Positions 16,377-45,265 of a DNA stretch of 45,854 nt are shown here, one piece after another. The position numbers were made by a program, and so were the translations under genes. This DNA is from Acidiphilium sp. PA (GTDB taxonomy: Bacteria > Pseudomonadota > Alphaproteobacteria > Acetobacterales > Acetobacteraceae). The DNA lies in NCBI RefSeq assembly GCF_026191915.1, contig NZ_JAIMBY010000023.1:1-45854 (forward strand), written 5' to 3'. The notes below the pieces were generated by a model. It saw only the letters and a program-made list of their open reading frames with translations, was not told the origin of the DNA and searched no databases. Each line of letters opens with the position of its first letter. The first letter of the stretch is position 1.

Positions 16377-16451
16377 GCGGGCGTAGCTCAGGGGTAGAGC
16401 ACAACCTTGCCAAGGTTGGGGTCGAGGGTTCGAATCCCTTCGCCCGCTCCA
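16377..16451 (+). tRNA. tRNA-Gly(GCC)
   Basis: A 75-nt cloverleaf including an encoded CCA. Acceptor arms GCGGGCG and CGCCCGC pair fully; the D arm is GCTC/GAGC; the anticodon loop CTTGCCAA places GCC at 16409-16411; the T arm holds GGTTCGAATCC. The 3' end abuts the conjugative element, and such tRNA 3' ends are common integrase targets, so this is a likely attachment site. The second copy needed to prove it is outside the window. Confidence 0.95.
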
Positions 16452-21106: not shown

Positions 21107-22465
21107 CTATTCTCCTCCCGAGAGATCCACGGAATGGCCGCCGCCATGGCTGTCGCCCGACCTGAGCGCCTGCGCGGCCGCCTGGGCGCCGTGCGTCATG
21201 GCTTGGTTGCGCCGCAGGCGCTGGGCCCAGGCCGGCGGAGCGGCGGCATCGGGTGCGGCGCCGGCCGGATCGGCCGCTGCTTCCGCGCCGCTTACGGTTC
21301 CCATGGTCGATGACCCGCCAGTCTTCGCGAAGCTCGATTGCGCGCCAGCCGAGAAGCTGTCCTTCATCGCGCCGGCCGCGCGGGCGGCCGCGCGACGCAC
21401 AGGCGACGCCGCGGCAGAGGCGGCGGCGCGACCGACCCCGCCCAGGCCCGCCGCGACACCCGAGGCGCCAGAGCGGCCGGCCGAGGCGAGGCTGTAGGCC
21501 GAGGAGGCCCCACCCGCCATCGCCGCGCCGCCGCGGGCAGCGGCGGCCGTGCCGGACGCGGCCGCCATCGCTCCCCTTCCGGCCAGGCCCAGCGCCCCGG
21601 CGCCCGCCATCGCCGTGCCGGCGACGGCGAGTCCGGTGCCGACGGCGGCGCCCGCGCCAAGCTGCGGCGCGCCGGAGACGAGGCCCGTCGCGATGCCCGG
21701 GCCGAAGATGCCGAGACCGAGCAAGGCCAGCGCCGCAAGCACGACGGAGAGCGCCTGCTCGATGGTCGGCTGGCCGGCCACATAGGTCCGGGTGAATTGC
21801 GAGAAGAGCCCGGTGCCGATCCCGACGATGACGGCCAACACCATCACCTTCACGCCGGAGGCGACGATGTTGCCGAGCACCTTCTCGGCGAGGAAGGCGG
21901 TCTTGTTGAACAGCGCGAAGGGGATGAGGATGAAGCCGGCGAGCGTCGTCAGCTTGAACTCGATCAGGGTGACGAAGAGCTGCACCGCCAGGATGAAGAA
22001 GGCGATCAGCACCAGCAGCCATGAGATCATCAGCACCGCGATCTGCACGAAATTCGCGAAGAAGCTGGTGAAGCCCATCAACTGGCTGGCCGCGTCGAGC
22101 AGCGGCTGACCGGCGTCGAGTCCGACCTGGGCGAGATGGCCCGGCTGAAGAAACGTCGCCGTCGAAATGGTCGAGCCGCCAGCCTTCAGACCGAGGCCGG
22201 CGAAGCTGTTGAAGACGATGGCCGACAGGTTGTTGAAGTTGGTGATGATGAAGGCGAAGAAGCCGATGTAGAGGGTCTTCTTCACCAGCCGCTGAAGGAT
22301 GTCCTCGTCCGCGCCCCAGGCCCAGAACAGCCCGGCGAGCGCGATGTCGATGACGATAAGGGTCGAGGAGAGATAGGCGACCTCGCCCTTGATCAGGCCA
22401 AAGCCGGAGTCGATGTAGGTCGTGAACGTGTTGAGGAAGGTGTCGATGACGCCGACATTGTTCAT
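21107..22465 (-). CDS. trbL: Conjugal transfer protein TrbL (VirB6-like)
   Basis: A 452-residue polytopic membrane protein. It starts M-N-N-V-G-V-I-D-T-F-L-N-T-F-T, the usual TrbL N-terminus. Several membrane segments lie between 20 and 300. The last 150 residues are an Ala/Gly/Ser-rich hydrophilic tail, as commonly seen in TrbL. It corresponds to VirB6 in the inner-membrane complex. ATG 22465 overlaps the trbK stop by 4 nt, which decides the start. Confidence 0.93.
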   Translation of the reverse strand: MNNVGVIDTFLNTFTTYIDSGFGLIKGEVAYLSSTLIVIDIALAGLFWAWGADEDILQRLVKKTLYIGFFAFIITNFNNLSAIVFNSFAGLGLKAGGSTISTATFLQPGHLAQVGLDAGQPLLDAASQLMGFTSFFANFVQIAVLMISWLLVLIAFFILAVQLFVTLIEFKLTTLAGFILIPFALFNKTAFLAEKVLGNIVASGVKVMVLAVIVGIGTGLFSQFTRTYVAGQPTIEQALSVVLAALALLGLGIFGPGIATGLVSGAPQLGAGAAVGTGLAVAGTAMAGAGALGLAGRGAMAAASGTAAAARGGAAMAGGASSAYSLASAGRSGASGVAAGLGGVGRAAASAAASPVRRAAARAAGAMKDSFSAGAQSSFAKTGGSSTMGTVSGAEAAADPAGAAPDAAAPPAWAQRLRRNQAMTHGAQAAAQALRSGDSHGGGHSVDLSGGE

Positions 22466-28194: not shown

Positions 28195-30174
28195 CTACAT
28201 GCCGAGACGGTCGCCAGGATCGAGCGCGGTCTGACGTACGGCGCCGCGCTGGCGCTGGCGCAAAGCTTCCTGCTGACGCGCGGCGTCATCCGGCGTGTCG
28301 TCAACGACGTCGAATTCACGGCGCTCGCGGCGTGGTGGTGTCGTCTCCTTCGCGACGGACACGTGATCCGGCAGTTCCGGCTCGCGCCGCAGGCCGCCAT
28401 TGGCTTCGTCCTCCGCTTTCAACGCGGCCATGAGCACGGCCGACGGGGGACGGATTGGCAGTGACGACCAATCGTCCGGCCTCGGCGCATGGTCCGTTAT
28501 CGTGGGTGGCTCAAGCACCCGCTCGGCGAAACGGCGGTCTTCGTAGTAGCGCGCCTTCTTCGCCCGGATCGGATGCAGGCCGGAGACCATGACGATCTCG
28601 TCGGAGGGCGGAAGCTGCATGATTTCGCCCGGCGTCAGCAGCGGACGGGCGGTTTCGGAACGCGAGACCATCAGATGACCGAGCCAGGGCGAGAGCCGGT
28701 GGCCGGCGTAGTTCTTCATGGCCTTCATCTCGGTCGCCATGCCGAGGGCATCGCTCACCCGCTTCGCGGTTCGCTCGTCATTGGTCGCGAACGATACGCG
28801 CACATGGCAGTTGTCGAGGATGGCGTTGTTGGCGCCATAAGCCTTCTCGATCTGGTTCAGCGACTGGGCGATCAGGAAGCTCTTGAGCCCATATCCGGCC
28901 ATGAAGGCGAGCGCGCTCTCGAAGAAATCGAGCCGGCCGAGCGCCGGGAATTCGTCGAGCATCAGGAGCATGCGTTGTCGCCGGTTCTTCGGATGAAGCT
29001 CCTCGGTGAGCCGCCGGCCGATCTGGTTGAGCACCAGGCGGATGAGCGGTTTGGTGCGGCTGATGTCCGACGGCGGCACCACGAGATAGAGCGTGGCGGG
29101 CCGCGTGTCCGAGACCAGGTCGGCGATCCGCCAGTCGCACTGGCGTGTGACCTGGGCGACGACCGGATCGCGGTAGAGGCCGAGGAACGACATGGCCGTC
29201 GACAGCACGCCGGAGCGCTCATTGTCCGATTTGTTGAGCAATTCCCGCGCGGCCGAGGCGACGACCGGATGCGGCCCGGCTTCGCCCAGATGTGGGGTCG
29301 TCATCATTACCCGCAGGGTCGCTTCGATCGGACGCTTCGGATCCGAGAGAAAGGCGGCGACGCCGGCGAGCGTCTTGTCCGCTTCCGCGTAAAGGACGTG
29401 CAGAATGGCGCCGACCAGCAGCGAGTGGCTGGTCTTTTCCCAATGGTTGCGGCGTTCTAGCGAGCCTTCGGGATCGACCAGAACGTCGGCGACATTCTGG
29501 ACGTCGCGCACCTCCCACTCGCCCTTGCGGACTTCGAGCAGGGGATTGTAGGCGGCGGAGTCCCGGTTGGTCGGATCAAACAATAGCACTCGGCCGAAGC
29601 GCGCGCGAAAGCCGGCGGTGAGCTGCCAGTTCTCGCCCTTGATGTCGTGGACGATGGCGCTGCCGGGCCAGGTCAGGAGCGTTGGCACCACCAGGCCAAC
29701 GCCCTTGCCGCTCCGGGTCGGTGCGAAGCACAGCACATGCTCGGGGCCGTCATGGCGGAGATAGGACCGCTCATAGCGGCCGAGGACCGCGCCGTCCGGC
29801 GCGAGCAGTCCGGCGGAGATCATTTCGTCCGCGCGCGCCCAGCGGGCGGACCCATAGGTCTCGGCGTTCTTGGCCTCGCGGGCGCGCCAGACCGACATGC
29901 CGATCGCGACCACGGCCGAGATGAGGCCGCCGGAAGCCGCGATGTAGGCGCCCTCGATGAAGATCTGTGGCGCGTAGGCGTCGTAGGCGAACCACCACCA
30001 GAAGAACGCCGGCGGCAGGTAAATCGGGAAACGCAGTATGTCGAACCAGGGCCGTCCCAGTTCGGGCTGGAAGCCGAGCCGCCAGGCCGTCCATTCGGTC
30101 GCGGTCCACATCGTCACCAGCACGATGGCGAAGACGACGATGACCTGGCCCCAGAGAATCTTGGTCGCGGACAC
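28195..30174 (-). CDS. traG: Type IV coupling protein TraG (VirD4-like)
   Basis: A 659-residue inner-membrane ATPase that brings the relaxase-DNA complex to the trb channel. Membrane helices lie at about 8-25 and 45-95. Walker A is A-P-T-R-S-G-K-G-V-G near 155 and Walker B M-L-L-M-L-D-E-F-P-A-L-G near 400. GTG 30174 is chosen because AAGGAGAGG precedes it by 8 nt and the protein then begins S-A-T-K-I-L-W-G-Q-V as in relatives. An in-frame start 18 codons upstream lacks a ribosome site. The C-terminal 90 residues are charged and variable. Confidence 0.93.
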   Translation of the reverse strand: MSATKILWGQVIVVFAIVLVTMWTATEWTAWRLGFQPELGRPWFDILRFPIYLPPAFFWWWFAYDAYAPQIFIEGAYIAASGGLISAVVAIGMSVWRAREAKNAETYGSARWARADEMISAGLLAPDGAVLGRYERSYLRHDGPEHVLCFAPTRSGKGVGLVVPTLLTWPGSAIVHDIKGENWQLTAGFRARFGRVLLFDPTNRDSAAYNPLLEVRKGEWEVRDVQNVADVLVDPEGSLERRNHWEKTSHSLLVGAILHVLYAEADKTLAGVAAFLSDPKRPIEATLRVMMTTPHLGEAGPHPVVASAARELLNKSDNERSGVLSTAMSFLGLYRDPVVAQVTRQCDWRIADLVSDTRPATLYLVVPPSDISRTKPLIRLVLNQIGRRLTEELHPKNRRQRMLLMLDEFPALGRLDFFESALAFMAGYGLKSFLIAQSLNQIEKAYGANNAILDNCHVRVSFATNDERTAKRVSDALGMATEMKAMKNYAGHRLSPWLGHLMVSRSETARPLLTPGEIMQLPPSDEIVMVSGLHPIRAKKARYYEDRRFAERVLEPPTITDHAPRPDDWSSLPIRPPSAVLMAALKAEDEANGGLRREPELPDHVSVAKETTPPRRERREFDVVDDTPDDAARQQEALRQRQRGAVRQTALDPGDRLGM

Positions 30175-30347
30175 TGAACGCCTCTCCTTTCCCGGAGAGA
30201 CATCGGCGTCGGAGAAACGGCATCGCAAGCGCGATCCGCGGCGCTTCGCAGGCCGTCGCGTCGGAGCGAAAAACTATTTGAAGGGGCGTAGGTGGCCCAT
30301 GGCCACCCGCGCAGGCAGGGGCTCAGGAGCACTTGGCAGGACGCCAG

Positions 30348-31607: not shown

Positions 31608-33371
31608 TCACAGACCAAGCCCGCGCTTTCGTCCGAGGCTCCATTCGATGCCGCCGTCGTCACGGGCGGCGCCCGCGACATGTTGACCAAGCTTCTTCTC
31701 GAGGATTGGCGACCAGGGCACGAGCTGGAAGCCCAGTCCGTCGTCGATCATGGCGAAGCGGCCCGACAACAGGGTGAGGCGCTGGCGATAAACGCCCATG
31801 ACAGGCTCGCCCACGCCGGCCGGCGCGGGACGCAAACCCGTCTCGGCCGAAAGCCGCGCGGCGGTCTCGTCCAGCTCACGCCGCCGTAAGGTGGCGAGCA
31901 GGTCCCGCCCAAAGGTAACGTGCTCGCCCTGGCGGCGTGCGAGACCATCCCGGATAAGGTGCTCGGTGCGCGCCTTCATCGCCTCACGAACCTCCCCGCC
32001 AAACCCACCCATGGCGAGCGGCATCGGCTGGCGCTCGACGAGACGGTGGTCGAGCCAGGTCGCCCCGCGCCCGCCCACCTGGGCGCCGAGGTCGAGATCC
32101 GATCGCGTGGCCAGCACCAGCGTCGGCCGGGGATCATCCTGGCCGCCGAAGCGACGGACCTCGACGATCCCGCCGATGGGCGGTGCGTGCTCGAGGGCAT
32201 CGATACCGCGGAAGCGGACGTGATGAGCGTGGCCGTCCGTGCCGTCGATCACGGCGTAGGCCTCGCCGGTCAGTTCATCATGCAGTCCCCTGTCGATCAG
32301 GCGGCCTATGATCGGCGCGTCCGACGGCTGGGCGTCGATGACGTAGTCGCCGACGCCTCGGTCCTGGCCCCGCTCGGCGAAGGCGCGGTGCATGGTCTTG
32401 ATGATGTCGCCGCGCGCGCCGAGGTCGCGCAGCGTCCGCTCCGCTTGAAGGTCGACCAGCCACTGGCCGGAACCGGCCGAGGCGGCGAGTCCCATCCGCT
32501 CCAGCTTCTGCAGCCGGCCGACCATCAGGCGTCTCAGCTCGGGGTCCCCAGGCCCGGCTTGCGCCGGGCGCAGGTCGACCAGGCCCGTCGCGTCGGTGGC
32601 GAAGCGAAGCTCGACGTCGAGCCGGGTCCAGCGGTCGGCGCCCACCTCACGTTCGAGCGCCGTGCGGATGGCGTGCTCCGGACGTGGACCAAGCTCGATC
32701 CCGACCAGCTCCTCGGCGCGCGAGCGCAGCCCGTGGCTGATATAGTCACGCGAAATGACGAGGTCGGCGCCGGCGTCATCGACACCGCGTACGAGCAGAT
32801 GGAAGTGCGGATTGTCGGTGTTCCAGTGATCGACCGCGATCCAGTCGAGCCTGGCGCCAAGGTCGCTCTCCATCTGTCGGACGAGATCGCGGGTGAAGGC
32901 CTTGAGGTCGGTCATCTCGCCGGCGTCCTCGGGCGAGACGATGAATCGGAAATGGTGCCGATCATCCTCGCACCGTTCGGCGAAAGCCCGATCGTCGGCG
33001 CGATCGCTGGCGGCGTCGAACATGACGCCCCGTTCGCCGTCGCGGTTCACGCCTTCGCGCTTCAGATAGGACAGGTGTGCCGACAGCGGCGCCGAACGAA
33101 AGGTCCGGCCCCGGTGACGCACGACGCGCGCCTTGACGACGACGCGCCGGGTTGGGCTGAAGAGGCGGCCGCGGCTGAAGGCGGCCCGGCCGCGCCCAAA
33201 GCTGGAACGGCCCGGCATGTGGGCTCGCCCCGAGTTCGCCGATCGCTGGATGGCCGGCCCCGCTTTCCGGGCCGCTTTCAGGACCTGGGCGACGAAGCTC
33301 TTCGGCTTGGGCGCCTTCGTCGCGCGCGGGCGGCCAGGCCGGACCCGGAACTCATTCTCGCCCCCACTCAT
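31608..33371 (-). CDS. rlxS: Relaxase with DUF3363 domain (VirD2/RlxS type)
   Basis: A 587-residue protein that would nick the element at oriT and pilot it into the recipient. After a basic Arg/Lys-rich N-terminus, H-L-S-Y-L-K-R-E-G-V (Y102) is the likely catalytic tyrosine region. The histidine motif D-H182-W-N-T-D-N-P-H189-F-H191 is the metal-binding triad. The C-terminal half is DUF3363, typical of alphaproteobacterial trb-type ICEs. ATG 33371 is chosen because the basic N-terminus M-S-G-G-E-N-E-F is conserved in relatives; the frame extends 41 codons upstream. Confidence 0.88.
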   Translation of the reverse strand: MSGGENEFRVRPGRPRATKAPKPKSFVAQVLKAARKAGPAIQRSANSGRAHMPGRSSFGRGRAAFSRGRLFSPTRRVVVKARVVRHRGRTFRSAPLSAHLSYLKREGVNRDGERGVMFDAASDRADDRAFAERCEDDRHHFRFIVSPEDAGEMTDLKAFTRDLVRQMESDLGARLDWIAVDHWNTDNPHFHLLVRGVDDAGADLVISRDYISHGLRSRAEELVGIELGPRPEHAIRTALEREVGADRWTRLDVELRFATDATGLVDLRPAQAGPGDPELRRLMVGRLQKLERMGLAASAGSGQWLVDLQAERTLRDLGARGDIIKTMHRAFAERGQDRGVGDYVIDAQPSDAPIIGRLIDRGLHDELTGEAYAVIDGTDGHAHHVRFRGIDALEHAPPIGGIVEVRRFGGQDDPRPTLVLATRSDLDLGAQVGGRGATWLDHRLVERQPMPLAMGGFGGEVREAMKARTEHLIRDGLARRQGEHVTFGRDLLATLRRRELDETAARLSAETGLRPAPAGVGEPVMGVYRQRLTLLSGRFAMIDDGLGFQLVPWSPILEKKLGQHVAGAARDDGGIEWSLGRKRGLGL

Positions 33372-33741
33372 CCTGCGCCGCCACTCGGATAGAAAGCGGC
33401 GCGCGAACGGCAGTGTGCAGGCCGAAGCCCTGAAATCATTGGGAATAATCGCGCAACCTGCCACCGACCGACCGGCCTGCCCGCCAAAAGACAAGCCGCG
33501 ACAGTGGCTTGGATGCCGGCGTGGCAGGGGCTTTTAACTTGCCCTCTGTCGGTCGGTTCCTGCACGCCTCCCCTGTTCGCCCCTCCTCCTTCTCGGAAGT
33601 GCGCCTCGCTGCGCTTGCCTGCGAACTCGCATCCAGGGGCCTCGACGTGTCCTCGGAAGGCGCCGGACACCGTCGCAACGCGAAGGGAAACGCCAGCCGA
33701 CCGAGGCAACGCCGCGATATGGCCCCAAGGCGGCGTCGCCG
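33372..33741. other. 370-bp gap upstream of the relaxase; candidate oriT region
   Basis: No credible gene is seen here. It is bounded by the relaxase start and the lytic transglycosylase stop. It contains an imperfectly self-complementary segment with GTGTCC (33647-33652) and GGACAC (33665-33670) arms and scattered short repeats. Origins of transfer often lie next to relaxase genes, so this is the best candidate in the window, but I see no nick-site motif I can match with certainty. Confidence 0.3.
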
Positions 33742-34462: not shown

Positions 34463-34798
34463 TCAATCCCGCTCGCTGCGCTTGGGCGGACGGTTCCAGT
34501 TCAGCACCCAGGTGGCGTGGTCGTCGGTGGAGCGGAAAAGATTGGCGCGGATCGGCTGCGCCAGCGCCGGATCGTCGATGAGCAATGATACGTATTCGCC
34601 GGCCTTCTCGCCGGTGCGCGTCCAGCCCGCGCCGATCTCTGGGCCTTCGCCGTCGCCGAAGTGGACGCGATAGTCGGGCGCATTCTCGGCATCGGAGGAT
34701 TCGGCCGGAACGAGGGAAAGGTCTCCGGTGAAGAAGAGCGTCTGAATGCGTCCGGTGAAGCCGGATTTATCGCGCGTGAACTGACCGATTTGCGCCAT
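34463..34798 (-). CDS. DUF736 protein (copy 1)
   Basis: A 111-residue protein beginning M-A-Q-I-G-Q-F-T-R-D-K-S-G-F-T-G-R-I-Q-T-L, the DUF736 opening, and closing with A-N-L-F-R-S-T-D-D-H-A-T-W-V-L-N-W-N-R. It is a compact all-beta protein found almost only in conjugative elements; its role is unknown. A diverged paralogue lies at 40202-40528. Its start overlaps the 3' end of traF by 32 bp, and 4 bp separate it from the transglycosylase. Confidence 0.85.
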   Translation of the reverse strand: MAQIGQFTRDKSGFTGRIQTLFFTGDLSLVPAESSDAENAPDYRVHFGDGEGPEIGAGWTRTGEKAGEYVSLLIDDPALAQPIRANLFRSTDDHATWVLNWNRPPKRSERD

Positions 34799-36147: not shown

Positions 36148-36782
36148 GGTGCGATCCTCCCGATCTCGGCGGCGAGCGCCGCGATCTCGCGGGCGGCGGC
36201 GCCCTGCTCAGCAAGCTCGAAGACTAGGCGCCCGGATTGCGCCGCGTCGGCGAACGCGACGCGCTGGCCGATGGTGCTGGCGAGCACCGGTGGATCGTGA
36301 TCCGCCAGAGTTTCCGCCGTCTCGCGTGCGATGACGGTGCGCGCGCCACAGCGGTTCAGCACAAACCGCGCGGCAAGCTGGGGCCGATAAATGCGCGCCT
36401 CGCGAAGCAAACCGATCATTTCGGCCGACGCCCAGCCGTCGAGCGGCGACGGTTGCACGGGGATAAGCACCAGGTCGGCAGCGAGAAGGGCCGAGCGCAT
36501 GAGACCCGCGACACGCGGTGGGCCGTCAATGACGACATGATCTACGGCGCGGGCGAGGTCTGGCGCTTCGCGATGGAGCGTATCGCGCGCCAGGCCGACG
36601 ACCCCGAACAGCCGAGCCACGTTCTCCCGCGCCCGCTGCTGCGACCAGTCGAGCGCCGAGCCTTGCGGATCGGCGTCGATCAAGGTCACGCGCTTGCCGT
36701 GCCGCGCCCATTCACCGGCGAGGTGCAGGGCAAGCGTGGTTTTGCCGACGCCGCCCTTCTGGTTGAGCAAGGCGACGATCAT
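36144..36782 (-). CDS. parA: ParA-family partition ATPase
   Basis: A 212-residue ATPase with a deviant Walker A K-G-G-V-G-K-T-T (residues 9-16, K9 signature and K14), Walker A' L-I-D-A-D-P-Q-G-S-A near 38 and Walker B V-V-I-D-G-P-P-R near 84. It is a short ParA without an N-terminal DNA-binding domain, as in ICEs and small plasmids. With the downstream RHH protein it may stabilise the excised, replicating form. Overlaps repA by 4 nt. Confidence 0.9.
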   Translation of the reverse strand: MIVALLNQKGGVGKTTLALHLAGEWARHGKRVTLIDADPQGSALDWSQQRARENVARLFGVVGLARDTLHREAPDLARAVDHVVIDGPPRVAGLMRSALLAADLVLIPVQPSPLDGWASAEMIGLLREARIYRPQLAARFVLNRCGARTVIARETAETLADHDPPVLASTIGQRVAFADAAQSGRLVFELAEQGAAAREIAALAAEIGRIAP

Positions 36783-37891
36783 CTTCCCCCTCCCGGCCTG
36801 CGGCCGAAGGGCAGCGACGGTTGCTGGGCCGGATGCTCGGAGGTCTGCGTTGGGGCGGCCGGGTTATCCGCAGATCGGCTGGGCCAACAAGAAAAGTTAG
36901 ATTCTGAGTTAGACTCTAAGTTAGGGCCCGGGATCGTGGTTTCGGGCCAAAGGCTTAGCTGCGATTTGCGCGCCCGAAGTCCCGATACCCCCGCGCCTGA
37001 AGTCCCGATGATCGGCGCGCCCGAAGTCCCGAGCGCTTCCACACGTTTATCCACAGGGCCTGTGGATAAGTTGGCTGGCAGGATGCGCATCAGTTCACCG
37101 CGGTCGCCGCGCTCGATGCGCAGGCGATAGCCGGGCAGTGACTGGCGGGAGACGATGCGACGGAGGTCGAGGGCGAAATCACGCGGCCGGGCGAGGCTGC
37201 CGGATTTCTCGTGCAGATGCACGAGCTCGAACAGCCAGCCACCCGGCTGGCGGCCGGCGTGCTTGCGGGCGACGCGATAGAGCCAGCGCTCGATCCCTCC
37301 GGTGAGGCTGAAGTAGGCCGGGTCGATGGCGAGGACGAGGGAGCGATCGATGACGCCGCGGTAGAACCAGTCGGGGAGCACGAACTCCATGCCCTCGACG
37401 CGGCCGTCGCGCGTCGCGCATTCCTCCCACTCGTTGACCCAGGAGAACTGGTGACGGCGCCAGTGCTCGCCATTGCGGATAGTGGTGCGGATGACCGTCG
37501 ACTGGAGGCGGGCGAGCGCGCCCTTGAGCAGCTTGTAGTCCCGGGCGCCGGTCTGGCGGCCGATGGCGGTCAGAAGCTGGTAGGGCGTAAAGCGCAGGAA
37601 GCGCGACGTCTTGAGACCCAGATTCTCGGCCTCAACGATCTGGCTGGCCGCCCAGATCAGCACGTCGGCGTCCCAGATGGTCGCCATGCCGTGCTCGGCC
37701 ACCGCGTAGACTTCGACGCGGATATCACCGGCCTGGTAGAGGATCGGCGCGGTCCTCCTGGTTTTGGCGAGCGAGAAGAACGGCCGCTCCATCAGGTCGC
37801 GCTGATCGCGCGGGCTGGCGTCGCCGGTGGCGACGACGAACGGGTCGAGCTTGCTGCGTTCGCTGGCGGTGATGAGACGGCGCGACGACAT
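36779..37891 (-). CDS. repA: Replication initiator RepA
   Basis: A 370-residue RepA of the plasmid/ICE type. The N-terminal 250 residues form the conserved domain (R-P-F-F-S-L-A-K, W-D-A-D-V-L-I-W-A-A-S-Q-I, R-F-T-P-Y-Q-L-L, G-G-I-E-R-W-L-Y-R-V-A-R-K-H-A). The last 120 residues are low-complexity, and their DNA carries three direct repeats, a DnaA-box palindrome and a 12-bp-periodic repeat (see the origin entry), so the tail may be coding constrained by an origin. It begins 14 bp after the AlpA-like gene and heads the rep-par operon. Confidence 0.88.
   Translation of the reverse strand: MSSRRLITASERSKLDPFVVATGDASPRDQRDLMERPFFSLAKTRRTAPILYQAGDIRVEVYAVAEHGMATIWDADVLIWAASQIVEAENLGLKTSRFLRFTPYQLLTAIGRQTGARDYKLLKGALARLQSTVIRTTIRNGEHWRRHQFSWVNEWEECATRDGRVEGMEFVLPDWFYRGVIDRSLVLAIDPAYFSLTGGIERWLYRVARKHAGRQPGGWLFELVHLHEKSGSLARPRDFALDLRRIVSRQSLPGYRLRIERGDRGELMRILPANLSTGPVDKRVEALGTSGAPIIGTSGAGVSGLRARKSQLSLWPETTIPGPNLESNSESNFSCWPSRSADNPAAPTQTSEHPAQQPSLPFGRRPGGGR
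36864..37069. other. Predicted replication origin inside the 3' part of repA
   Basis: Elements seen: two perfect DnaA boxes in inverted orientation, TTATCCACA (37047-37055) and TGTGGATAA (37061-37069), forming an 11-bp-arm palindrome; one near-match TTATCCGCA (36864-36872); three 17-bp direct repeats of type GCGCC(C/T)GAAGTCCCGA(T/G) at 36970, 36993 and 37017 (23-24 bp apart); and AGTTAG three times at exact 12-bp spacing (36895, 36907, 36919) in a locally AT-rich stretch. DnaA boxes, iterons and an AT-rich segment together are the usual ingredients of oriV. Confidence 0.65.
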
Positions 37892-40201: not shown

Positions 40202-40528
40202 TCAGTCGGCGCGGCGGCCGTTTGGGCGGGACCAGATCAGGCTGTAGCCCTCGCCGTCCTCGTCGTCGAAGAGGTTGGCGAAGATCGGGGCGGTGAAGCT
40301 CGGATCGTCCAGCTTGAGGCTCAGATAGTCGCGACCCTCGTTGGAGCGCTTGGACCAGGCGGCGCCGATCTCGACGCGGCCGCAGTAGACCCGGTGGCTG
40401 GGGCTGTTTTCGCCGGTGCGGTTGGCTTCGGGAGCGATGCGGACATTCTTGGCCTGGACCGAGAGGGTGACGATCTGACCGGCGAATTCATTCGCGCCGG
40501 TCTTCTTGAAGGTGCCGATGGTCGCCAT
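40202..40528 (-). CDS. DUF736 protein (copy 2)
   Basis: A 108-residue paralogue of the 34463-34798 protein: M-A-T-I-G-T-F-K-K-T-G-A-N-E-F-A-G-Q-I-V-T-L, V-E-I-G-A-A-W, Y-L-S-L-K-L-D-D-P-S-F-T-A-P-I-F-A-N-L-F. The two copies share the opening, the E-I-G-A-(G/A)-W core and the A-N-L-F end but differ in much of the middle, so the duplication is old. ATG 40528 follows AAGGAG. About 100 bp upstream lies an unusual hairpin plus conserved non-coding segment. The role is unknown. Confidence 0.85.
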   Translation of the reverse strand: MATIGTFKKTGANEFAGQIVTLSVQAKNVRIAPEANRTGENSPSHRVYCGRVEIGAAWSKRSNEGRDYLSLKLDDPSFTAPIFANLFDDEDGEGYSLIWSRPNGRRAD

Positions 40529-40629
40529 GGTGGTTCTCCTTGATCTGACGTTTTCGAGCCCGCACCATTGCGGCCTCGATGGTGATCGAAGGGCCGGAGG
40601 CGATCGACGGCGCACCCCTTGCCCGGGGT

Positions 40630-40760
40630 CCCCATCGCGCCTGCGCGACGGGGTGGACGACGGGGCTGAAGCGCCAGCGGAGGATGGCGGCCAGGCGACT
40701 TTGTTGTCTCGCGAGGAATGGCGGCGCAGCCGACAGGGGAAGAAAGTCGATCGGCGCCAT
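40630..40760 (-). repeat. Conserved non-coding element, copy A
   Basis: This lies in the 655-bp gene-free gap 40529-41183, where I see no credible gene. On the plus strand it is a GC hairpin (40630-40653, arms CCCC.TCGCGC / GCGCGA.GGGG) followed by about 90 nt resembling 43978-44061, with shared blocks such as AGCGGAGGATGGCG, CGCGA.GAA and GGCG..CGCAGC. Both copies lie upstream of a minus-strand ICE gene (here DUF736, 102 nt away) in the same orientation. The rest of the gap (40761-41183) shows nothing recognisable. Confidence 0.55.
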
Positions 40761-41183
40761 TGCGCCAAAGGCGGTCGAGGCTTCAGCCGGCCTTCGGCCA
40801 GATCCAGCCATCGAAGAGGCCGTGAGGTGCGCTCGATCCAGAACGAAGACCGATCGAGGAGAACGTGGCGACGGTCGAGAAACCTCGAAAAGCCGGTGAT
40901 GGATTTCGTGGCAGACGCGATCCCTCTGGTCCGCCGATAGACCGCATCTCGCTCGCACAGCCGAGGCGCTTGAGCGAAGGGCCTCCATGCAAGGGACTCA
41001 GGAGGGCCGCGTTGCGCGCGTCTCCATTGGTTCCGGAAGCTTTCCGGGGTGCGTCACGATCCGCGAAGAGCCGATCCGCGGCAGCGTCGCCGCCCTTATC
41101 CAGGTTCCGGACTTTCGGCGCAGCCGGCGTCTCGGGGCCGCCGCCTGTTCTGGTCCCGCCCCTATCGCCCGCGCCTACTGGGC

Positions 41184-41624
41184 TCAGCCCCGCGCCATCC
41201 CCCGTTGGGTCGGTTCGGGTGGGGTCATGCCGGTGAAGCGAACGAATGCGGTAACGCTGACGGCGATGGCTCCGATCACCGAGAAGACCGTCTGCCATGT
41301 GGGCGACGGCATCGCCATCTGGGCGATACCGTGCGTGGCGCTATAGCCGGCGACGGTGGCCGGCGCGATGAAGAGCAGGATGATCAGCAGCCGAAGCCAA
41401 ACCCAGGGCACGAACGCCATGGCGAGTTGTCCGACGCCGAAGGTGGCACCCGCGGCGAGGACGCCCAGGATGATGCCGCCGAGCGCTCCGGCGCCGGTAT
41501 GGAAGGCCCATATGCCGACCATGAAGCCGACGAAAGCCGGCAACGCGAAGACGGCCAGCGTGAACAGCAACCAGCAGAAGAACCCGATGGCGAGGACGAC
41601 GAGCAAAGGTCCGAGAACGATCAT
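41184..41624 (-). CDS. Small polytopic membrane protein
   Basis: A 146-residue protein with four or five hydrophobic helices: I-V-L-G-P-L-L-V-V-L-A-I-G-F-F, L-A-V-F-A-L-P-A-F-V-G-F-M-V-G, G-G-I-I-L-G-V-L-A-A-G, L-R-L-L-I-I-L-L-F-I-A-P-A and V-F-S-V-I-G-A-I-A-V-S-V. The tail is polar. I do not recognise a family with certainty; similar proteins occur in the accessory part of alphaproteobacterial ICEs. Entry exclusion or envelope protection is possible but not supported by motif. It is separated from its neighbours by more than 150 bp on both sides. Confidence 0.65.
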   Translation of the reverse strand: MIVLGPLLVVLAIGFFCWLLFTLAVFALPAFVGFMVGIWAFHTGAGALGGIILGVLAAGATFGVGQLAMAFVPWVWLRLLIILLFIAPATVAGYSATHGIAQMAMPSPTWQTVFSVIGAIAVSVTAFVRFTGMTPPEPTQRGMARG

Positions 41625-41775
41625 GGTGGCAGACTCCGTGAGATGACAATCAAACGGCTGCGCCTTCCACCACCACCACGGCGCAGAACAGAGTATAGCT
41701 AAAGACGAGCGCGGATGGGAGCAGAAATCCGGCTCGAAGTCCGCTCACCGAGCCTTACGGTATGGTGCAGCTTGC

Positions 41776-41940
41776 TCATTCGAACGGATCGAATTCGTGG
41801 ACCACGTCAGCGGGGTCGCCGTCGAATTCCGAGGCCGGCATGACGCCGTATCCGCCAGTCTCGGCCGTGAAGATGACGACGCAGACCATGAGGGATTTGG
41901 CGAGGCTCCAGCCGTTGGCGAAAGCGAGCGATTGAGACAT
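41776..41940 (-). CDS. 54-residue conserved ICE protein
   Basis: A short gene with ATG 41940, CAGGAG at good spacing and TGA at 41776-41778. The sequence opens M-S-Q-S-L-A-F-A-N-G-W-S-L-A-K, has a hydrophobic stretch (L-M-V-C-V-V-I-F-T-A) and ends in an acidic G-Y-G-V-M-P-A-S-E-F-D-G-D-P then V-V-H-E-F-D-P-F-E. The acidic D/E-F-D-P tail could mimic DNA phosphate, as anti-restriction proteins do, but this is speculation. The flanking gaps (41625-41775 and 41941-42190) show nothing else I can support. Confidence 0.6.
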   Translation of the reverse strand: MSQSLAFANGWSLAKSLMVCVVIFTAETGGYGVMPASEFDGDPADVVHEFDPFE

Positions 41941-42190
41941 CGATCCGGCTCCTGCTTTGCGGCGGGGCCGATCCCCGCGCGACAGGCGCCCGATGTGTCC
42001 GGTCAGGGGCCGCGATCACCGCGCAGTCAGGGACGAGCGGCGGCACGCATGGCGTAGCCGACCCTTCACGGGTTGATGGCCTCAGGCCCGTGGGCGGACC
42101 AAGGATCAGCGCATCAGGAAGCGGGGATGGAACATGCCGGCGGAGGCAGCCGGATCGCCGGGCGTCGGTGCGGCTTTCGGGGGCCGCAGC

Positions 42191-42613
42191 TCAGGGCGTG
42201 CTTGCCCAGGGATCGATCACTTCAAGGCCGGCGGCGGTGAAGGCGCTCGTGTCGCGAGACGCGACCGCGAAATCATGCGCCGCAGCGATCGCGGCGATAT
42301 AGCCGTCGGGCGTCGGGAAGCCCCTGCCGGCCGCGCGGGCCCTGACGGCGAGTTCGGCGTAGCGGCGAGCCGCACGGGTATCGAATGGCAGGATGCGATC
42401 CGCGAACAGCTCCAGCACGCCGTCCAACGCGGCGGTCAGCTTGTCCTTCCGCCGGCCGTTGGGCAGCGCGCCGATGCCGAACATCAGCTCGGCTATGGTG
42501 ACGCTCGACACGTAAAGCGTCTCCGCCGCCTGGGCGTCGAGCCATGCGCGAACCGCCGCCGCCGGCTCGGGCTTCATCGCCTCGGAGACCACGTTCGTGT
42601 CGAGCAGGATCAT
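42191..42613 (-). CDS. fitB: PIN-domain toxin (VapC/FitB type)
   Basis: A 140-residue PIN ribonuclease. The acidic active site is visible: D5 in I-L-L-D-T-N-V-V-S-E, E42 in T-I-A-E-L-M-F-G, D102 in P-T-P-D-G-Y-I-A-A-I-A, and D119 or D120 region in A-S-R-D-T. L-D-T-N-V-V-S-E-A-M-K-P-E-P is the FitB-type opening. It would cleave RNA (probably tRNA) when free of its antitoxin. Start overlaps the antitoxin gene by 4 nt. It probably stabilises the element in the cell. Confidence 0.9.
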   Translation of the reverse strand: MILLDTNVVSEAMKPEPAAAVRAWLDAQAAETLYVSSVTIAELMFGIGALPNGRRKDKLTAALDGVLELFADRILPFDTRAARRYAELAVRARAAGRGFPTPDGYIAAIAAAHDFAVASRDTSAFTAAGLEVIDPWASTP

Positions 42614-42864
42614 TCGAAACGCAGCGGCTCGGCGGCCCGAGTGTCTCGGCCCTTTTCGAGGGTTTCGACATCGGCGTTGGTCAGCCCGATCTTCCGGCTC
42701 ATCTCCGCCAATGCTGATCCGAGGCGTAGCCGGCCTTCTGGCCGCACGGCGGCTTCCAGGATGGCGCGCATCTCGGCTTCCGTGCTGCGATTATGCTGCG
42801 CCGCCCGGACTTTGAGGGCGCGGTGCGTCTCATCGGACAGGTTGCGGATGGTGACGGCGGGCAT
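42610..42864 (-). CDS. fitA: Ribbon-helix-helix antitoxin (FitA/VapB type)
   Basis: An 84-residue antitoxin. Residues 1-40 (M-P-A-V-T-I-R-N-L-S-D-E-T-H-R-A-L-K-V-R-A-A-Q-H-N-R-S-T-E-A-E-M-R) are the FitA-like Arc/MetJ DNA-binding domain. The C-terminal part (L-G-S-A-L-A-E-M-S-R, then the R-D-T-R-A-A-E-P-L-R-F tail) should bind the toxin active site. The toxin gene overlaps by 4 nt, the normal antitoxin-first order. A palindrome 28 bp upstream is the likely site of autorepression. Confidence 0.9.
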   Translation of the reverse strand: MPAVTIRNLSDETHRALKVRAAQHNRSTEAEMRAILEAAVRPEGRLRLGSALAEMSRKIGLTNADVETLEKGRDTRAAEPLRFE

Positions 42865-42891
42865 GATGGCATAGTCCTGTTCGCGATAGCG

Positions 42892-42901
42892 TTGATATCA
42901 A
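42892..42901. promoter_or_regulatory. Palindrome upstream of fitAB
   Basis: TTGATATCAA, a perfect 10-bp palindrome in an otherwise GC-rich 79-bp gap between the DUF2493 stop and the fitA start. It is a plausible FitAB operator overlapping the promoter of the toxin-antitoxin operon. Confidence 0.5.
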
Positions 42902-42943
42902 TATGGAGGACTGCCATCAGACGTCAAGAGTGGCACGCGGCGC

Positions 42944-43879
42944 TCACGCGCCGCCCTTGCCAAACTTCCAGACCGGGATGCCGAGCTTCCTGGCTTTGTC
43001 GGCGAGGTTGTCCTGGATGCCGGTGCCCGGAAAGTGCAGCACCCCGATCGGAAGGGTGTCCAGCATCGCGTCGTTGCGTTTGAACGGCGCCGCCTTGGCG
43101 TGCTTCGTCCAGTCGGGCTTGAAGGCGATCTGCGGCACCTTGCGATTGTCGGCCCATTTGGCGGCGATCAGTTCGGCGCCCTTCGGCGAACCGCCGTGCA
43201 GAAGCACCATGTCTGGGTGCTTGGTGTGGACCTGATCGAGCTTGGCCCAGATCAGGCGGTGATCGTTGAAATCGAGGCCACCGGTGACGGCCACCTTCGG
43301 TCCGGCCGGCAACAGCACCTCCCGGTCGGCGCGCTTTTTGGCGGCGAGGAAGTCGCGGCTGTCGATCATCGCGGCGGTGAGATGGCGATGGTTGACCTTC
43401 GATCCGCTGCGCGGCCGCCAGGCCGAGTGGGTATGTCGCTCGAACTGGTCGGCGGCCTGGTCGCGCATCAGCTCGAAGACGTTGCGGCGCTCGATCAGCG
43501 TCTGGCCTTCCGAGGTCAGCCGTTCGAGTTCGACGGATTTGACCTCGCTGCCGTCCTGTTCCCGCTGCGCGCGTTGCTGCGCCATCTCGTTGTCGTCGAG
43601 TTCGCGCTCGATCCGGTCGATCGCGCGATGGAACACATTCACCGTCGACCAGAGCAGATCCTCGAGGTCGGGTTCGAGGCGCGTCTCCGCGAGCGCCACC
43701 ACGAGGGCGTCGAAGATGTCGGCGACGCTGCCAGCGAGAACGTGCGGTTCGGGGAGCGGCCGCGAGTCGGGTTCATCGTGGAAGGGTCGGTAGCCGTAGA
43801 GCTGGAGTTCCTGAAGGACGCGGTCGGTGGGGGATGCGTCGTGGCGGGGCTCGAACTCTTCGTCGTGGTCGATGGACAT
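42944..43879 (-). CDS. DUF2493 (SLOG superfamily) protein
   Basis: A 311-residue protein. The C-terminal 130 residues are DUF2493: V-A-V-T-G-G-L-D-F-N-D-H-R-L-I-W-A-K-L-D, then V-L-L-H-G-G-S-P-K-G-A-E-L-I-A-A-K-W-A and a final G-V-L-H-F-P-G-T-G strand. This Rossmann-like fold binds nucleotides or sugars. The N-terminal 170 residues are acidic and helical and probably coiled (R-I-E-R-E-L-D-D-N-E-M-A-Q-Q-R-A-Q-R-E-Q). ATG 43879 has GAGGAAAG upstream, which sets the start. In ICEs such genes neighbour Toprim and helicase genes; the role is unknown, with a nucleotide-signal function inferred for the superfamily. Confidence 0.8.
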   Translation of the reverse strand: MSIDHDEEFEPRHDASPTDRVLQELQLYGYRPFHDEPDSRPLPEPHVLAGSVADIFDALVVALAETRLEPDLEDLLWSTVNVFHRAIDRIERELDDNEMAQQRAQREQDGSEVKSVELERLTSEGQTLIERRNVFELMRDQAADQFERHTHSAWRPRSGSKVNHRHLTAAMIDSRDFLAAKKRADREVLLPAGPKVAVTGGLDFNDHRLIWAKLDQVHTKHPDMVLLHGGSPKGAELIAAKWADNRKVPQIAFKPDWTKHAKAAPFKRNDAMLDTLPIGVLHFPGTGIQDNLADKARKLGIPVWKFGKGGA

Positions 43880-43957
43880 CGCGGCTTTCCTCGTCGGATC
43901 GGCCGCGCCCATCGCGGCCTTCATGGCGACGAAGGCGCCGGGCGGGGCGGACTTGCA

Positions 43958-44061
43958 CCCGCAGCGTGAGCTGCGGGCCGAAGCGGAAGCGGAGGATGGC
44001 GAAGGCCGGCGATTTTGCTTCGCGATGGAAAGGCGCGCAGCGCCGCCGGAAAATCGTCGGC
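43958..44061 (-). repeat. Conserved non-coding element, copy B
   Basis: In the 321-bp gap 43880-44200 between the DUF2493 start and the Toprim stop. It is a perfect 7-bp-stem hairpin (CCCGCAG/CTGCGGG, 43958-43977) followed by about 84 nt related to 40654-40760. Same order and orientation as copy A relative to the downstream minus-strand gene (79 nt to the DUF2493 start). No credible gene occupies this gap, although one minus-strand frame is open through the conserved part. Confidence 0.55.
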
Positions 44062-44200
44062 CGCAGCCATTGCCGGGACGCCCCGCCTGGCGCCCGATCG
44101 CCCTCTCCGGAAGGCCGTGGGCGCGGTCCTCTCCGCGGCACGAGGAAAGCCCCTGGCCATTCGCCGTCGAAGACTGGCCCACACGCCATCCCCGTTCCGG

Positions 44201-45265
44201 CTACGCCGCCAGCTCCATGAAGCGGGCGACGTCCTGCGCCGCGATCTGCCCTCGGATCGCCGCCCGTAGCGCATCGGCTCCGAGCAGCCTCAGGTCTTCG
44301 TTGAAGTCGCTCAGCTCAGGGGAGAGCACCAGCGCCTCGATCCCGGCCGACTGAACGCGGTCGAGGAGCGTCGCCACTGCGCTATCGCCTGCCGGATCGT
44401 TGTCGCGGGCGATATAGAGGCGCCGCAGCAAGTCGGGGAACAGGATGGCTGAGAGGTGCGCCGCCGACAGCGAGGCGACCATCGGCATGCCGGGTAGGAC
44501 GCATCGTAGCGACAGCATCGTCTCGATGCCTTCGCCGGCCGCGAGGACCTCGCCCGCGACGCCGAAGCGCACCGCATGGCCGAGCAGATCGCCCATCGCC
44601 CGTCTCGGCGTGTCGATCGGCGCCTTGCCGAGCGTCGCCTCGTTGAAGCCGTCAGGGTCGAGCCAGGTGCGATGCGCGCCGGTCAGGTGACCGGAGAGAT
44701 CGGTGACGGCGGCGATCATCGCCGGCCACGTCTCGGTCGGGCTGTGCTCGTCCGGCCGGTAGTAGCAGCGGGGATGGAAGCGCAGACTGCCGGTTCCGTG
44801 CAAAGCCGTAATGCCGCGTTGGCGTAAATACGTTTCCACGGGAGTGCGCTCGATCGGCTGCGACATGGCGAACAAGCGCCGCGCCACATCCGCCGATCCG
44901 GTCGCAGCCTTGGGCCTGCAAACGGAGACGTTCGCTGACGCCGGCTGCAAAACAGGGCGCGGCAGGCTGAGGAACGAACGGGCTTCGTCGGCGACGTCCT
45001 TGAAATCGACGAGGCCGCGGCTCGCACGGATGACGTCGAGCAGATCGCCGTGCTCGCCGGTGGCCGCGTCGGTCCATTTGCCGGCCGGTCCCTTCGCGGT
45101 TTCCTTGAGCCGAACGAACATCGACCGCCCCGGCGTGTTGCGGGCGTCGCCCACGAGCCAGTAGGCGCCTTGGCGGCGGCCGGCGGACAGGTAATGGCGG
45201 CATACCGCCTCGGCATTGCGCGCGAGGCGGTGGGCGAGTTCGGAGGCGTCGAGGCGTTCCATCAT
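44201..45265 (-). CDS. Toprim-domain primase-like protein
   Basis: A 354-residue protein related to the primase/Toprim proteins of ICEs. The N-terminal 100 residues (Y-W-L-V-G-D-A-R-N-T-P-G-R-S-M-F-V-R-L, G-K-W-T-D-A-A-T-G-E-H-G-D-L-L-D) correspond to a DnaG-type zinc-finger region without the cysteines (DUF7146-like). The Toprim core is V-L-A-A-G-E-G-I-E-T-M-L-S near 245 and L-Y-I-A-R-D-N-D-P-A-G near 287, giving the E and DxD metal ligands. It may synthesise primers on the incoming strand. Start overlaps the stop of the broken helicase gene by 4 nt (M1 45265; M2 at 45262 is an alternative). Confidence 0.85.
   Translation of the reverse strand: MMERLDASELAHRLARNAEAVCRHYLSAGRRQGAYWLVGDARNTPGRSMFVRLKETAKGPAGKWTDAATGEHGDLLDVIRASRGLVDFKDVADEARSFLSLPRPVLQPASANVSVCRPKAATGSADVARRLFAMSQPIERTPVETYLRQRGITALHGTGSLRFHPRCYYRPDEHSPTETWPAMIAAVTDLSGHLTGAHRTWLDPDGFNEATLGKAPIDTPRRAMGDLLGHAVRFGVAGEVLAAGEGIETMLSLRCVLPGMPMVASLSAAHLSAILFPDLLRRLYIARDNDPAGDSAVATLLDRVQSAGIEALVLSPELSDFNEDLRLLGADALRAAIRGQIAAQDVARFMELAA

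Follow-up and report, generated by a model that had tools for sequence, protein, structure and literature searches.

A covarying rod-shaped element before DUF2493 and DUF736 genes in leading regions of mostly alphaproteobacterial conjugative elements, possibly active as single-stranded DNA

Results and Discussion

Two copies of a rod-shaped element in the window

Why do two unrelated genes in one mobile element of Acidiphilium sp. PA share a long non-coding sequence upstream of their start codons, and in which form of the DNA would that sequence act? The stretch of DNA analyzed here (the window) is the whole contig C16 (NZ_JAIMBY010000023.1; 45,854 bases) of a genome assembled into 86 contigs (4.5 Mb). 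The two genes, hereafter the led genes, encode a DUF2493 protein (42944..43879, minus strand, ATG at 43879; PF10686, E 5.1e-32; Pfam YAcAr, YspA/cpYpsA-related SLOG family) and a DUF736 protein (40202..40528, minus strand, ATG at 40528; PF05284, E 3.6e-34). We find that each is preceded by one copy of an element that has a conserved sequence, a covarying structure and a steady spacing before a few unrelated genes, and that lies on the leading side of transfer regions with the transferred strand (T-strand) as template.

An earlier note, made from the letters of the window alone, had described in both gaps a GC hairpin followed by a related segment, and this was confirmed. A repeat search pairs 40663-40689 with 43975-44001 (27 nt, 89%), and in a genome-wide search (4.5 Mb), positions 40663-40763 matched the DUF2493 copy with 74% identity (E = 1.6e-7). 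The copies do stand in the same orientation upstream of the two starts, with the correction that the shared element is on the minus strand. The proposed extent, a hairpin plus ∼85 nt, proved too small, as the feet of the element lie at about 40562-40830 (40562..40830, minus strand, before DUF736) and 43901-44129 (43901..44129, minus strand, before DUF2493). The GC hairpins (40630..40653 in the DUF736 copy and 43958..43977 in the DUF2493 copy, both read from the sequence) are present and vary in sequence within the family, but they are side hairpins only; the main stem lies elsewhere and reads, on the plus strand, CGACTTT..AAAGTCG in one window copy and CGATTTT..AAAATCG in the other. The end of the rod is about 20-40 nt from the ATG in the window.

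On both strands, the fold of the DUF2493 copy is better than that of 200 of 200 shuffled sequences (z -4.65 on the plus strand and -3.65), and its folded strand would be the plus strand if the form is single-stranded DNA. The fold of the DUF736 copy is unremarkable when taken singly (z -1.72 on the plus strand and -1.62; 13 and 15 of 200 shuffles are equally good), and its family stems covary. For the core, 38 copies in T-strand sense were used to build a covariance model, R1. It scores the window cores at 92 bits (43978..44073, plus strand, E 4.7e-17; DUF2493 copy) and 87.4 bits (40666..40763, plus strand, E 4.7e-16; DUF736 copy), values that hold by construction because both cores are among the 38 building sequences. 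The same genome has a further pair of copies on contig C3 (G000:C3:40847 and 55630; L170), before DUF736-like and DUF2493-like frames.

Covariation of the stems

A search over all pairs of alignment columns found nested stems that enclose nearly the whole intergenic stretch. The element is a non-coding rod of nested stems, ∼230-270 bases from foot to foot. Eight stems (S0-S7, nested and covarying) were defined for the copies before DUF2493 genes (121 copies; 89 after removal of those >93% alike) and six for those before DUF736 genes (76 copies; 49 after the same removal). Double-sided Watson-Crick changes were above the maximum of 200 shuffles in 14 of 14 stems; slid controls were lower for 12 of the 14, S1 of the DUF2493 set being tied with its control (5 and 5) and S2 falling below the best slid one (5 and 6). 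These counts come from stems chosen on the same alignments, and relatedness inflates them. In the tool-made alignment, the 15 core pairs were formed in 93.2% of cells compared with 78.0% after shuffling, and 98 core cells were double-changed compared with 31.3 in shuffled and 3-16 in slid controls. The proposal of the earlier note that folding is under selection is strongly supported, as the family stems covary beyond shuffles.

Upstream of the 5' foot, the commonest base has a mean frequency of 0.55 over the first ten positions and of 0.35-0.45 farther out; the conserved unit is the rod, and conservation stops just upstream of its 5' foot. These data also bear on another reading, in which a donor regulator binds the element as double-stranded DNA, either as an operator or as a cruciform. 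A regulator common to several genes would be in keeping with the long inverted repeats upstream of them, and the unpaired T-strand tail, GAAGCG.CAGCGGAGGA, is conserved nonetheless. Many stem letters change with pairing kept, which fits folding better than recognition of a fixed sequence, and we regard the operator as quite improbable.

The earlier note had also allowed for a short conserved peptide, A-I-L-R-(F/W)-R-F, and both window copies can be read in this way. Among 197 copies examined, the tail motif was found in 175; of these, 94 have an in-frame spacer of 2 nt and 81 one of 3 nt, 84 carry a stop in the frame, and 50 different readings occur. The peptide is refuted by these spacer lengths and stops, and we give it next to no chance.

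Distribution of the family

Profile searches yielded 216 copies in 155 sequences (154 loci plus the window; a few of the 154 loci are the same DNA fetched twice), so that the element is seen to recur before the same genes in many mobile elements. In genome surveys with R1, matches were obtained in 77 of 200 genomes at the level of the order, in 21 of 289 for the class, and in 33 of 299 for the phylum, each count including the window's own genome. Four genomes of the phylum survey lie outside the class; three have the match before a DUF736-like frame that starts 92-95 nt past it, with letters changed and arms still paired (by eye), and the fourth has it before another small frame. Within the bacterial family, 43 of 150 genomes were matched at E ≤ 0.001, some of them by nothing but short matches, and a pattern scan of one genome per species found at least 120 stretches.

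In a set of 72,556 plasmid records searched at E ≤ 1e-5, the DUF736 copy matched 281 (192 conjugative, 35 mobilizable, and 54 non-mobilizable) and the DUF2493 copy matched 58 (17, 4, and 37, respectively). With the DUF2493 copy as query at E 1e-5, there were no matches in 50,697 phage records. At its gathering threshold, Rfam 15 reported solely a tRNA in the window and, in six other loci, four matches, none of which overlapped the element; at E ≤ 10 over 40500-44250, nothing fell on the element cores. With no match at the curated threshold, a known Rfam family is excluded as its identity. The Rfam small RNAs ar15 and Atu_Ti1 occur on the same Ti/Ri-type plasmids, located elsewhere and with no overlap. 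No description of the element was found among the open-licence papers searched.

Led genes and their distance from the element

Eight of the 216 copies are too close to a sequence end to have a full surrounding stretch. When the downstream frames of the other 208 were classified with wider text patterns, 203 copies were found to precede DUF2493 (124) or DUF736 (79) genes, and 5 were not. Because the loci were picked by the element, this figure says what follows the element, not what share of such genes carries it. Narrower text patterns assigned 113 downstream frames to DUF2493 and 75 to DUF736, with 28 assigned to neither. The distance from the core end to the ATG is steady, with a median of 87 nt for DUF2493 (60-143; 110 of 113 copies) and 84 nt for DUF736 (65-134; 74 of 75 copies).

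A reverse test, starting from the genes, drew on 14 sources with annotation, namely the window and 13 plasmid stretches. An R1 match lies just upstream of 23 of the 24 DUF736 and DUF2493 genes outside the transfer cluster; the sole miss is the DUF2493 gene of pGDIPal5II (L033, 1063-1992), where the plasmid record is cut nearby. The DUF736 paralogues inside the transfer cluster have no match in any of four cases (pCHQ1, Lpl, pGDIPal5II, and the window, where this second gene lies at 34463-34798, minus strand).

The steady spacing to the ATG, and covarying stems that end shortly before the Shine-Dalgarno region, also suit a structured mRNA leader, in which the rod would be part of the 5' untranslated RNA and would control stability, termination, or translation in either cell. 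Such a leader needs a promoter, but the 130 nt upstream of the 5' foot hold neither a conserved stretch nor a sigma-70-like site, so that no separate fixed promoter is visible there. Promoters of another type, or ones whose position varies, would escape this search. Neither its outcome nor the lack of an Rfam leader match is decisive. We rate the mRNA leader as the main rival, and as unlikely.

A reduced form of the element stands upstream of ardC (annotated as zincin-like metallopeptidase or DUF1738) in five plasmids (L034, L035, L162, L163, and L165), where the matches to R1 are short and weak (E 0.0014-0.0094). By eye, this form lacks the long main stem and consists of GCAACGGC and GCCGTCCTCCAC with a short loop between them, followed by a CGG tail. 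The outer arms, CCCGTC..GGTCC and GGACC..GACGGG, are paired in L034, L035, and L162; pairing is partial in L163 and less clear in L165. Nothing alike was seen by eye upstream of ardC in pCHQ1 and pCMU01 or of the antirestriction gene of pAMI8.

Matches before other genes were also noted. Two Ti/Ri-type plasmids have an element-like match before a small gene whose product starts MQQLAQFL (L034:13118-13208 and L035:13121-13212), and pCMU01 (L161) has a third strong match at 22257-22350, where the gene that follows, located between DUF2493 and traG, encodes a hypothetical protein of 57 aa.

Position and strand relative to the transfer origin

Among the 13 plasmid stretches for which annotations were examined, 11 show a relaxase, and pBb1S5a and p5 of NZLR1 do not. 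The relaxase of Lpl is a DUF3363 protein, counted by its likeness to that of the window (31608..33494, minus strand; PF11843 DUF3363, E 1.9e-84), whose match to the MobA/VirD2 family PF03432 (E 3.8e-4, 21.2 bits) is under the Pfam cut-off of 24.6. In all 12 elements with a relaxase in view (11 plasmids and the window), the led genes run towards it.

Six of six Ti-type plasmids have an RSF1010-like nic core with a preceding inverted repeat between traC and traA; in pRM41A, pRi_26-59, pAA02, pCMU01, and pTiCG78, it was found by pattern, and in pXAUT01, by eye. The order of parts here, with the inverted repeat first, then the nick and then the relaxase-bound downstream part, agrees with that described for RSF1010 and RP4 (PMC4814116). 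The strand of the nic core in the Ti-type plasmids runs from oriT through traC-traD-traG to the elements. This polarity (6 of 6) supports the placement of the led genes on the side predicted to enter first, with the transferred strand as their template.

Outside this group, RP4-like TATCCTG/C was seen by eye on the expected strand in pCHQ1 and pS15H, in the latter as a short motif in 440 bases. The window has a weak candidate nic core, TTAACTTG/CCCTC (33534..33546, plus strand; read by eye), that would send the plus strand towards the elements; it is no independent test because the search pattern came from the window itself. The candidate of pGDIPal5II is weaker, like that of the window, Lpl and pAMI8 have no trusted candidate, and the aligned relaxase-upstream regions of the window, pCHQ1, and Lpl show no clean oriT. 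In the 14 sources, R1 has 27 matches at E < 1e-5, of which 24 are in the twelve elements with a relaxase, and in 23 of these 24, the T-strand is the template.

The leading side and the strand would also fit a single-strand initiation (ssi) or primosome assembly site that primes second-strand synthesis on the T-strand. Such sites are folded sites on transferred single strands, and the conserved tail resembles AAGCGG, which we take to be a motif of PriA sites. Priming does not require a site before each gene or a steady distance to unrelated start codons, and the element keeps that distance; we consider a priming role improbable.

A possible start platform for RNA synthesis on the incoming strand

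With a probability of about 0.48, we read the element as a cis-acting element for gene expression in the leading regions of conjugative plasmids and integrative and conjugative elements (ICEs), active as a single strand and working like Frpo. The T-strand would enter the recipient single-stranded, and each copy would fold into a rod with its feet before the start codon. The folded rod would provide a double-stranded platform where RNA polymerase, perhaps with single-stranded DNA-binding protein (SSB) or primase, could begin RNA, and DUF2493, DUF736, and in some plasmids ArdC would be made ahead of the second strand. In this reading, the action of the element as a single strand, the start of RNA at the rod, and a role of the led genes in protecting or establishing the incoming DNA are inferences. 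A start platform on the folded strand is favored because it explains together the conservation of the rod as a unit, the position of the rod end, the lack of a visible upstream promoter, and the presence of unrelated led genes that enter early, on the arriving strand.

The Frpo/ssi elements of F-like and other plasmids, as presented in PMC11541004 and PMC12826799, where Masai and Arai 1997 is cited for them, share several traits with the element: both lie in the leading region with the T-strand as template, and both have a hairpin upstream of a gene and occur in several copies per mobile element. Frpo has -35 and -10 boxes (like TTGACA and TATAAT) in its stem, whereas none were found in the element, which is a GC-rich rod with feet ∼230-270 nt apart and precedes DUF2493, DUF736, and ardC in mostly alphaproteobacterial elements; the two are set apart by description and not by sequence alignment. 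Because the defining boxes were not found, we do not class the element as Frpo, though it may work alike. The searches described in PMC11541004 and PMC12826799 used known or candidate Frpo sequences, and the terms alphaproteobacteria and rhizobi- are absent from the main texts of these papers.

The wobble pairs of the stems point weakly to the T-strand as the folded form. Sense A.C pairs, which are G.T on the T-strand, outnumber sense G.U pairs by 186:95 in the DUF2493 set and 53:33 in the DUF736 set, and the lean is strongest in the main stem (58:12 and 9:1). An excess of A.C over the whole structure speaks against an mRNA leader without being decisive. In favor of such a leader, sense G.U pairs are present and, in the outer feet, equal or exceed A.C. 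G>A and C>T have similar values in unpaired columns (0.044 and 0.045; 0.068 and 0.072). The T-strand also folds better than the sense strand in 85 of 89 and 44 of 49 copies with RNA parameters and in 80 of 89 and 46 of 49 with DNA parameters. This comparison was dropped as evidence because the strands of coding controls differ as much or more (87 of 87, 47 of 48, 86 of 87, and 43 of 48). Two further measures were set aside: the RNAalifold difference between strands (-46.2 compared with -25.1 and -26.1 compared with -11.2), which may share the weakness seen in the controls, and an A.C:G.U ratio of 325:36, whose structure had been chosen to favor that count.

Several observations weigh against a single-strand-active expression element. 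The strand-energy result just given is one. With respect to the wobbles, 31 of the main stem's 58 A.C cells come from a single column, the outer feet have no lean (41:38, 3:5, and 6:11), and flanks and fourfold sites lean about 1.5-1.7:1 in the same direction. A -35/-10-like pair was found within the element in 0 of 89 and 0 of 49 copies on the sense strand and in none on the other strand. The suggestion by the earlier note of a single-strand promoter on the incoming strand is thus partly supported, its leading-region setting being upheld (nic polarity and gene direction) and no sigma-70-like boxes being found. A leader of any kind, if its gene lies in the leading region, would show this geometry too. 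Among the plasmid records matched by the DUF2493 copy, 37 of 58 are typed non-mobilizable. Finally, the one reversed match, in pTiCG78 (L163:20859), is part of an inverted pair around three recombinase genes.

It is possible, at somewhat less than even odds, that these copies represent an unnamed, widespread class of single-strand promoters without sigma-70-like boxes that switch on ArdC, DUF2493, and DUF736. If so, DUF2493 and DUF736 would be new establishment or anti-defence proteins, and the class would be carried by alphaproteobacterial ICEs and Ti/Ri-type plasmids as well as by a handful of genomes from other classes of the phylum. To our knowledge, the tested single-stranded DNA promoters all come from enterobacterial plasmids, and searches for such promoters have relied on known Frpo sequences or on boxes of the E. 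coli type. Early expression on entry would, if the reading is right, extend to elements of Agrobacterium, Rhizobium, Bradyrhizobium, sphingomonads, and Methylobacterium, a large soil and plant class. The element would then be a sequence handle for leading regions that does not depend on knowing oriT, and it would single out DUF2493 and DUF736, whose functions are unknown, as candidates for protecting incoming DNA.

Neighboring genes

Upstream of the DUF2493 element in the window is a DUF7146/Toprim gene (44201..45265, minus strand; PF23639, E 3.8e-40; PF13362, E 2.4e-21). Both led genes point to the relaxase-like gene, beyond which is that for a TraG-like coupling protein (28195-30228, minus strand), and a RepA initiator is encoded at 36779-37891 (minus strand). 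PADLOC gave zero defence matches on five window proteins.

Three adjacent tyrosine recombinase genes lie between inverted element copies in pTiCG78 (L163, 19988-24934), with DUF736 on both sides, and in pBb1S5a (L037, 8172-12490). Similar recombinase trios are also found near elements in L036 (6606-9788) and L160 (12911-16364). Between the two led genes of the window is a PIN-domain gene (42191-42864, minus strand) that may form a VapBC-like pair with a small frame just upstream, and the tRNA gene of the window (16377-16448, plus strand) is a possible integration site.

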